This document shows positions 5,121-57,145 of a DNA stretch of 64,000 nt, in pieces. Position numbers and translations under genes: made by a program. Each line of letters begins with the position of its first letter. Position 1 is the first letter of the stretch. The notes below the pieces were generated by a model. That model was given only the letters and a program-made list of their open reading frames with translations, ran no database searches and had not been told where the DNA came from. The DNA is from Candidatus Kuenenia stuttgartensis (GTDB lineage Bacteria; Planctomycetota; Planctomycetia; Pirellulales; UBA1268): assembly GCA_945891385.1 (NCBI GenBank), contig CAMDDJ010000001.1, positions 92,921-156,920 of the forward strand, written 5' to 3'.

Positions 5121-5163
5121 GGTTCGCTGGCGGGGTCGGATCGCGGGGTGGAAGCAGTGTCAC

Positions 5164-5430
5164 CTGGCGGGTCGGGATTGCCCATGCCCCGGCGCTGGAG
5201 GTTCGCTGCTGCATGGAGGGGCGGAGGCTGGGCTGCCTGGCGGGTCGGGATTGCCCATGCCCGGCGCTGGAAGTTCGCTGCTGCATGGAGGGGCGGAGGC
5301 TAGGCTGCCTGGTGGGTCGGGATTGCCCATGCCCGGCGCTGGCGGTTCGCTGCTGCATGGAGGGGCGGAGGCTGGGCTGCCTGGTGGGTCGGGATTGCCC
5401 ATGCCCCGTCGCCGGACGTTCGCTACGGAC
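5164..5430. repeat. 72-73 bp tandem repeat, about 3.5 copies, intergenic
   Basis: 'CTGG(C/T)GGGTCGGGATTGCCCATGCCC' recurs at 5164, 5237, 5309 and 5381 (spacing 73, 72, 72) with shared 'GGTTCGCTGCTGCATGGAGGGGCGGAGGCTGGGCTGC'. Confidence 0.95.
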
Positions 5431-5526
5431 ATCCTGTCCTTCGCTCACTCGGAGGAAACCTTCGCTGCGCAATCCTTGCTGCGCTCGGTTTCCTACGCCG
5501 GCTCTCGGGGCACAGGCAACCCCGAC
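5388..5526. repeat. Palindrome-bounded dispersed repeat, copy 1
   Basis: Ends GTCGGGATTGCCCATGCCCC / GGGGCACAGGCAACCCCGAC form an imperfect inverted repeat; core 'CGGACGTTCGCT..CATCCTG.CTTCGCTCACTCGGAGGAA' shared with 56396-56526. Confidence 0.85.
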
Positions 5527-5728
5527 CGGAATGCGATTCCTGAAGTGCCCGAAGCCCACGTTCCTCGGCTTCCCCGTCTCAGGCACGCAGCGAGGCGCAG
5601 CCTTGCGCAGCGTGCCATCCGCGTCGCCCCGACTCGACGACAATCCGCGCAGACGAGGCCACCACTCCGCGCAAGCCGCACGCCATCGGCCGCCCGGAAG
5701 GCGGCCGGCCGGGCGGAGGCCCGGCAAG

Positions 5729-5757
5729 CTCAGCGGGGCCAGGGATGGCCCGCTGAG
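5729..5757. terminator. Strong hairpin at the 3' side of the 5773-6411 gene; possible terminator
   Basis: CTCAGCGGGGCC-AGGGAT-GGCCCGCTGAG stem-loop; no T-tract. Confidence 0.4.
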
Positions 5758-5772
5758 CGCTGAGCGCTGAAG

Positions 5773-29267: not shown

Positions 29268-29287
29268 CGTGGCCGCTCTGCCGCACC

Positions 29288-29375
29288 GGATGAAGGGGCG
29301 GAGGCTGCGTCAACTGGCGGGGCGGGGTTGCCCGTGCCCCGTCGCCGGACGTTCGCTGCGGGCATCCATGCCCTC
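29288..29375. repeat. Dispersed repeat, copy 2 (truncated; relates to the 72-bp unit and the palindromic element)
   Basis: 'GGGGCGGAGGCTG..... CTGGCGGGGCGGGGTTGCCCGTGCCCCGTCGCCGGACGTTCGCTGCGGGCATCC' matches 5352-5432. Confidence 0.8.
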
Positions 29376-29402
29376 CGCCGCCACCGTTTCAGGGGTGCCT
29401 GG

Positions 29403-30242
29403 TCATCCCCGCACCAGCTCGGGAAAGTCGGCGAAGAGGCGGGCGGGGTTCACGCGCTTGTCGCCGCCGCGGCTGCGGGCGGCAGCGGCATCCCAGGTCG
29501 GGGTAGGGCTTCCGGTGCGTTCAGCCAGTTGGCCGTACCAGTCGCGGCGGCGAACCGGCCGCCCGTCGGAGACGACGTAGAGCGGTGCGGGGGCGGGGGC
29601 ATCCGCCACGGTCAGGACGACCCGCGCCGCGTCGTCGATGTGGATGAGATTCAGCCAGGTGTCGGGGTCGGCTGCAATCGGGCGACCGGCCTTGAGGTCG
29701 TCGAGCCGGGGCATCCGTTCGGGCCCGTAGAGTCCGGCAAAACGGAGCGCCGTTCCGGGGCCGGCCGGATGGGCCCGTAGCAGGGCTTCGGCCTCCACCA
29801 GGGCCCGGCCTGCCTCACGGGACGGATTGACCGGCGTTGACTCATCGACGACCTCGCCGGCTTCGTCGCCCCAGACGCCGGTCGAACTGGAAAAGACAAC
29901 CCGGCAGGAGCGAATTGGAGGTGGCACTCGGAGAAGGGCGTCCAGCATCCGGGCCAGGCCCGTCGCCTGAACGTCGTGATAGGTGGCACCGCCGGACCGG
30001 TCGAAACTCACGCTCCAGAAGATGGTCTCGGGTCGGCCGCTCCGGGCACACAGGGATTCCCAGTCGGCCGTGGTGACGTCGAGGATCACGGGCTCGATGC
30101 CCTCGGCTGCCAGCGACTCGGCCCGGGCGACCGACCGGGTGGTGCCGATCACGCGGTCGCCTCGGGCCGTCCAGAGCCGTGCCACACGGACGCCGAGATA
30201 CCCGGTGCCAACCACGAGTCGCAGCGGAGCGGACGGCGTCAT
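29403..30242 (-). CDS. NAD(P)-dependent epimerase/dehydratase (SDR) family protein
   Basis: 'VVGTGYLGVRVARLWTARGDRVIGTTRS' Rossmann motif; 'VVFSSSTGVWGDEAG'. Confidence 0.82.
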   Translation of the reverse strand: MTPSAPLRLVVGTGYLGVRVARLWTARGDRVIGTTRSVARAESLAAEGIEPVILDVTTADWESLCARSGRPETIFWSVSFDRSGGATYHDVQATGLARMLDALLRVPPPIRSCRVVFSSSTGVWGDEAGEVVDESTPVNPSREAGRALVEAEALLRAHPAGPGTALRFAGLYGPERMPRLDDLKAGRPIAADPDTWLNLIHIDDAARVVLTVADAPAPAPLYVVSDGRPVRRRDWYGQLAERTGSPTPTWDAAAARSRGGDKRVNPARLFADFPELVRG

Positions 30243-56212: not shown

Positions 56213-56395
56213 GAATGGGCCTTCCGATACTTGAATGCAGATCGGAGGCGCAGGTGTTCGCCCCCAATGGACCCATAGTCTCGACTGCGACCCGGCCGCT
56301 GCCAAGGGGTGCGAGCGTTCGCCGACCCCCGAGCCTCCCGCGCTCTGAACGGAGGTGGTCCGGCTCGCGGCTTCGGGGGTCTGTCCGAACTCGCC

Positions 56396-56526
56396 GGAGT
56401 TACCCGTGCCAGCTCGTCGGACGTTCGCTCCGGCCATCCTGGTCTTTCGCTCACTCGGAGGAACTTCGCTTCGCCTTCGTGGCTCTGCTCGGTTTCCGAC
56501 GCCGCTCGATTGGCACGGGCAACTCC
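56396..56526. repeat. Palindrome-bounded dispersed repeat, copy 3
   Basis: Ends GGAGTTACCCGTGCCA / TGGCACGGGCAACTCC (15/16 inverted match); core matches 5411-5493. Confidence 0.85.
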
Positions 56527-56602
56527 TCCACCCCGTGCGTCTGCACGCTGTTTGACAGATTGCTGCTCCAGCCATTGATAATCCAACTGCATCGAATCGA
56601 GG

Positions 56603-57145
56603 ATGACAGGCATGACCGCACCGGCCCGTACTGTGCTCGTGATCATGGGCGTTGCCGCCTGCGGCAAGACCGTGGTGGGGCGGACCCTGGCCGAGCAACT
56701 CAGGGGGCGGTTCGTGGATGGTGACGACTACCACCCGGCCGACAACGTGGCAAAAATGGCAGCGGGCAGCGGGCTCACGGACGCCGATCGGTGGCCGTGG
56801 CTCGATCGGCTGCACGCAATCCTCTCCGAGCATCTCGCCGGTGATTCGCCGGTTCCGCTGGTCGTCGCCTGCTCGGCCCTGGCCCGCCGGTATCGCGATC
56901 GCCTGCGAGGCGGCCTGCCGTTTGAGCGAGTCCGGTTCGTCCATCTCGCCGCGGACTTCGACACGATCCTCGGCCGGCTCGAGGCCCGGCAGGGCCACTT
57001 CATGAAGGGGCGGGCCATGCTCGAAGATCAGTTCGCGACGCTCGAACCGCTCGCACCGGACGAGGTGTCCGCCGGGAGTCTCGTTCTCGATGCGGCGAAC
57101 CCGGTCGCGGCGATCGTCGAGCGGCTCGTGGGTTGCTCGGGCTGA
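56603..57145 (+). CDS. gntK: Gluconokinase
   Basis: 'VIMGVAACGKTVVGRTLAEQLRGRFVDGDDYHPADNVAKMAAGSGLTDADRWPWL'. Confidence 0.92.
   Translation: MTGMTAPARTVLVIMGVAACGKTVVGRTLAEQLRGRFVDGDDYHPADNVAKMAAGSGLTDADRWPWLDRLHAILSEHLAGDSPVPLVVACSALARRYRDRLRGGLPFERVRFVHLAADFDTILGRLEARQGHFMKGRAMLEDQFATLEPLAPDEVSAGSLVLDAANPVAAIVERLVGCSG

Follow-up and report, generated by a model that had tools for sequence, protein, structure and literature searches.

Structured repeats dispersed through intergenic DNA are known in many bacteria, and the constrained strand, together with the reason for the constraint, is clear for few of them. The bcr1-bcr18 repeats of the Bacillus cereus group are dispersed between genes, some with traits of mobile elements and some with conserved RNA structure, and about half of their copies are expressed within transcripts (PMC3446304). 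The ERIC/YPAL sequences of enterobacteria are structured, intergenic and about 130-170 bp long, and in Yersinia ERIC adopts an RNA fold and influences adjacent genes (PMC2267715). REP/BIME sequences are high-copy extragenic palindromes, sometimes arranged as inverted pairs, the REPs being 20-40 bp long, ending in GTAG or CGTC and frequently associated with a RAYT gene (PMC3733652). A regulatory parallel is offered by the CsrB/RsmZ-type sRNAs and CsrA leader sites, with their A(N)GGA hairpin tips and two sites at a spacing that a CsrA dimer can bridge.

The repeat analysed here, hereafter the Y element, resembles each of these four systems in part and differs from each. Unlike bcr1-bcr18 it resides in an unrelated host, its ends vary and covary, and a GGA-tipped Y is not among the bcr descriptions that we found; whereas ERIC forms one long stem-loop bounded by terminal inverted repeats, it folds as a Y with variable ends; it has neither the length, the ends nor the RAYT link of REPs; and where CsrB-type RNAs are dedicated many-site sRNAs, it consists of about a hundred dispersed two-site copies for which CsrA binding is putative. 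No Rfam family reached the gathering score in the window, the 64,000-nt stretch of planctomycete DNA that was analysed, and two element loci gave no match with E<=1. The Y element is a real, strand-constrained, dispersed structured-RNA-like repeat without a match in Rfam or in the literature searched.

The earlier note had described two full copies with a shared core and complementary ends, a truncated relative at a third locus, and an intergenic position for all three. The covariance model R1 finds the full copies at 5386-5527 (copy A; 158.4 bits, E 1.2e-31) and 56391-56530 (copy B, of a second subfamily; 129.8 bits, E 1.2e-25), both with the RNA sense on the minus strand. It assigns the third locus to the same family (match 29319-29414, 41.6 bits), the truncated copy itself extending by sequence over about 29313-29377, again on the minus strand. 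The core TTCGCTCACTCGGAGGAA has 2 matches against 0.09 expected by chance, and the predicted gene gaps at 5121-5772, 29268-29402 and 56213-56632 bear out the intergenic placement. Copies A and B fold better than 200 of 200 shuffles, with z-scores of -8.6 and -5.6 on the minus strand and -6.0 and -3.5 on the plus strand. The original observation is therefore confirmed, and it is larger in extent than first noted.

Read on the minus strand, the RNA forms a Y in which a closing stem of at most 19 bp leads to a three-way junction with two similar arms. In our reading of the alignment, each arm comprises, besides a short GGA-tipped hairpin, a tandem-GA internal loop, a GC/GC step and a GNA/GNA internal loop. 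The long closing stem proposed earlier is present, while that account omitted the junction and the two conserved GGA-loop arms. On the consensus structure, the closing stem of copy A has its 5' side (RNA sense) at 5508-5523 and its 3' side at 5391-5406; arm 1 occupies 5450-5497, with the stem GGAAACC/GGUUUCC, both internal loops and the tip AGGAU, and arm 2 occupies 5418-5449 (GUGAGCG...GGACAGGAUGUCC...AGCGAAC, tip AGGAU), all on the minus strand. Copy B is closed by GGAGUUGCCCGUGCCA/UGGCACGGGUAACUCC and has CGA instead of GGA at the tip of arm 1 and AGGAU at that of arm 2. The truncated copy retains arm 2 (tip AUGGAU), the 3' side of the closing stem and one tail unit.

A 72-bp tandem array of 3.6 units (5163-5424, minus strand; Tandem Repeats Finder, 93% matches) repeats the 3' end of copy A in RNA sense, its left end in the window, together with the tail, and partial units akin to it also precede several A-type copies. 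Comparison of a copy between two close species shows its 3' tail as a tandem duplicate in one (L115 of G008) and as a single unit in the other (L172 of G011), which suggests that tail units can expand or contract quickly. Further intergenic hairpin repeats lie beside copy A at 5567-5625 and 5735-5765, including GGGCCAGGGATGGCCC with an AGGGAU loop. At 56306-56375 are arms related to a second palindromic intergenic repeat family, with the hairpin GGGCGAGGATACGCCC, which occurs at 47 places in the screened stretches of the source genome and in some cases adjoins Y-element copies. An outer repeat around A-type copies (CAACTGGT/ACCAGTTG), read by eye, was dropped because it showed no covariation.

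Covariation in the end stems, first suspected from two copies, holds over 48 distinct copies of the source genome and 64 distinct copies from many genomes. Within the source genome, 25 of 42 pairs show two-sided changes and 97.8% of pair cells are paired; the 161 two-sided cells compare with 44.1 +/- 4.6 in 500 shuffles and with 4-24 when the alignment is slid. Family-wide, the corresponding values are 32 of 42 pairs, 98.2% of cells, and 365 two-sided cells against 91.0 +/- 9.1 in shuffles, and 13 of the 15 pairs of the closing-stem helix covary. The first alignment was made with MAFFT, the second was fitted to the model and is biased in its favour, and in both the copies are non-independent, so that all counts overstate significance. 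The ends of the closing stem vary between and within subfamilies and yet remain complementary. With compensatory changes exceeding both the shuffled and the slid controls, the assignment of the element to a structured RNA family is strongly supported.

The fold is also constrained on one particular strand, since a one-sided change in a pair reads as G-U on the functional strand and as A-C on the opposite one. Read on the minus strand of the window, G-U exceeds A-C by 65:10 in the MAFFT alignment of source-genome copies, by 58:9 family-wide and by 130:13 over the source-genome copies. As the imperfect pairs are G-U and not A-C on the minus strand, this strand is the constrained one. The excess persists where copies lie antisense in tandem gene contexts (14:3) and between divergent genes (9:2), and the constraint is independent of the direction of neighbouring genes. 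We hold this structured, strand-constrained part of the explanation to be highly probable. The asymmetry points to transcription of the constrained strand, and the constrained molecule is likelier to be RNA, though folded ssDNA would give an equal asymmetry.

These counts bear on an account that dispenses with selection on pairing, in which the arms stay complementary through template switching that corrects quasi-palindromes, and variants spread by gene conversion. Orthologous places may bear different arm and stem sequences with pairing retained, as copy-to-copy conversion would give; from the sequences compared here, such differences may stem from compensation, conversion or replacement, which are not separable. 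However, template switching and conversion predict neither the one-strand excess of G-U over A-C (65:10, 130:13) nor the near-invariant unpaired positions of internal loops and tips, and we regard this account as very improbable.

The expectation of more copies in the genome was amply borne out: R1 finds the ~140-bp element at 118 places in the assembly (3.77 Mb, 150 contigs), about 95 of them with E<1e-7, and several contigs terminate within a copy. Aligned copies fall into two main subfamilies and a smaller third, and five of them exceed the usual length by about 27 nt, which in L018 is due to an insertion in arm 2. The element is present in all 22 genomes of the genus. Of the 297 genomes sampled from the order, 59 have it; these belong to one family, represented by 66 members, and none of the 231 genomes from other families has it. 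A sample of the phylum yielded only the source genome and a weak pair of matches in one distant genome, G618 (46 and 45 bits), in which the closing stems differ and the tips, AGGAU and AUGGAU, are similar. The contigs bearing the element come from MAGs of planctomycetes, for many of which the isolate name indicates a lake as the source. Spread by phage, plasmid or virus was dropped as a candidate, no match being found in the phage, plasmid and viral collections, the last of which was searched by one exact pattern.

Comparison of related genomes indicates turnover of copies. Among syntenic sites compared in G008 and G011, which are close species, several retain the copy, some are without it and two hold remnants. 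The L383 site spans 520 bp with its copy in G215 and 304-315 bp without the element in three sister species, and as the contigs of G215 match its genus, the comparison supports a gain of this copy in G215. Elsewhere, the genus g3 includes genomes with several copies (one with at least 10) and five with none. Element-less sites were thus seen, but their intergenic flanks have diverged too far for insertion boundaries to be read. Such patchy presence and the empty and altered sites would be expected of a miniature mobile element that is selfish and plays no RNA role in the host; an enzyme would act on its folded strand (RNA or ssDNA), and the fold would be kept for propagation only. Inverted pairs of copies, and a strand asymmetry that holds regardless of gene orientation, likewise favour this view.

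The marks of known mobilisers are, in contrast, missing from the source genome. The earlier note had proposed target-site duplications and a REP-associated transposase as things to look for. There is no duplication beyond chance, the longest shared flank match being 4.14 against 4.15 in shuffled pairs, and the search for mobiliser genes, which covered the Y1_Tnp and RVT_1 families, found neither a Y1 transposase/RAYT (PF01797) nor a reverse transcriptase in the source genome (93.9% complete). RAYT-like genes occur in 9 of the 22 genomes of the genus, and four such loci scanned in relatives have no element within the flanks covered; RVT_1 is absent from 17 of the 22. A TIR-type MITE is ruled against by the non-constant ends and the absent duplication, a REP/BIME with a RAYT by the 140-nt Y, the variable ends and the lack of PF01797 in the source genome, and retro-mobilisation was rejected on the RVT_1 results. 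We infer that the copies spread by a mechanism other than TIR/TSD transposition, and that nothing found in the source genome would drive this spread through a RAYT or a reverse transcriptase. Of the alternatives first offered, a MITE/REP-like element or a structured RNA, the second is thus upheld, while the mobile-like character stands as that of a dispersed repeat gaining and losing copies and falls with respect to TIR/TSD or RAYT marks. The selfish element, for which no autonomous partner was seen and which leaves the conserved tips unexplained, is a reading that we judge to be somewhat less likely than not.

The placement of copies relative to genes bears on a further possible role. None of 84 source-genome copies checked overlaps a predicted gene (simple codon-usage caller), and the flanking genes face a copy with 101 3' ends (median distance 81 bp) and 57 5' ends (median 175 bp). 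Between tandem genes of the source genome, 29 copies lie in sense and 11 in antisense orientation (p=0.006), the A subfamily, by our own classification, at 12:0. This is the pattern to be expected of an element at mRNA 3' ends, with a stem shielding transcripts from exonucleases or limiting read-through, as has been proposed for other intergenic palindromic repeats. However, copies in other genomes show no clear orientation bias (28 sense, 20 antisense, p=0.31), no U-run follows the stem, and promoter avoidance alone would yield an enrichment at 3' ends, so that we consider a 3'-end function improbable.

The conserved tips point in a different direction. Both arm tips hold GGA in 154 of 179 copies, a count that favours GGA where alternatives exist, and about 14% of copies are without it in at least one arm; in raw column counts, which have no bias toward GGA, the tip GA hardly varies in either arm. 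AGGAU is the commonest tip, with AUGGAU and others also found, and in most copies the GGA tips are 40-42 nt apart. CsrA recognises the SELEX consensus RUACARGGAUGU with GGA in a loop, its dimer bridges two sites 10-63 nt apart, and very stable hairpins may make poor ligands (PMC7652899); A(N)GGAX is the core motif, and the affinity of RsmE is lower when N is omitted (PMC4005645). The arm tips agree both with A(N)GGAX (PMC4005645) and with the SELEX core, and their spacing falls inside the bridging range (PMC7652899). A(N)GGA hairpin tips at bridging distance are therefore found in the family, though not in every copy.

Candidate binding partners are encoded in the same genome: a canonical CsrA of 73 aa (L522:454-675; PF02599, 75.6 bits) and a divergent paralogue of 140 aa (L467:2519-2941, 34.9 bits), both found in screened stretches that amount to about half of the genome, so that other paralogues may exist. 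An orthologue is present in G156 (L270:6521-6742, 75.9 bits). GGA loops are enriched in intergenic hairpins more generally, with 36 of 177 against 64 of 773 genic hairpins in the source genome (p=1.6e-5) and 36 of 164 against 50 of 455 in relatives (p=9e-4). At L456:16140-16700 (G000:C2), the hairpins GGGCCAGGATGGCCC and TCGCCAGGAAGGCGA alternate in a tandem array beside a tRNA gene, which is the only Rfam match there; the array resembles a multi-site GGA sRNA. The evidence from GGA loops, spacing and CsrA genes is correlative, and binding of the element tips by a CsrA-family protein is a tentative proposition that we judge to be somewhat doubtful.

Taking these observations together, the reading that we prefer, with a confidence that for the chain as a whole falls a little short of even, is that of a dispersed structured-RNA repeat whose minus-strand transcripts plausibly bind CsrA. 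The constrained strand of each copy would be transcribed, in a UTR or alone, and the transcript would fold as a Y, exposing two GGA tips that could be bound by one CsrA-family protein dimer. Each copy would then act as a portable two-site CsrA-binding module, titrating CsrA or marking the transcript that carries it. The CsrA component is weakened by the five-base AGGAU being the commonest tip, that is, with N omitted, by the stability of the arm stems and by the CGA of copy B arm 1, and the 28:20 orientation outside the source genome fits a function in UTRs poorly. A bolder extension, which we think unlikely, is that a mobile-like repeat has scattered ~100 two-site CsrA modules through each genome of the family and that other GGA-hairpin repeats join them in a distributed CsrA sponge or addressing network.

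CsrA binding may be considered the most specific testable function found for the Y element. Its copies are numerous enough to reveal a fold specific to one strand, ends that vary yet pair, and tips that hint at a protein partner. If CsrA does not bind, the element would clearly exemplify a repeat under constraint as a folded single strand, with no mobiliser recognised for it. If CsrA does bind, the element would illustrate the way in which the spread of a repeat can bring many transcripts under one regulator.
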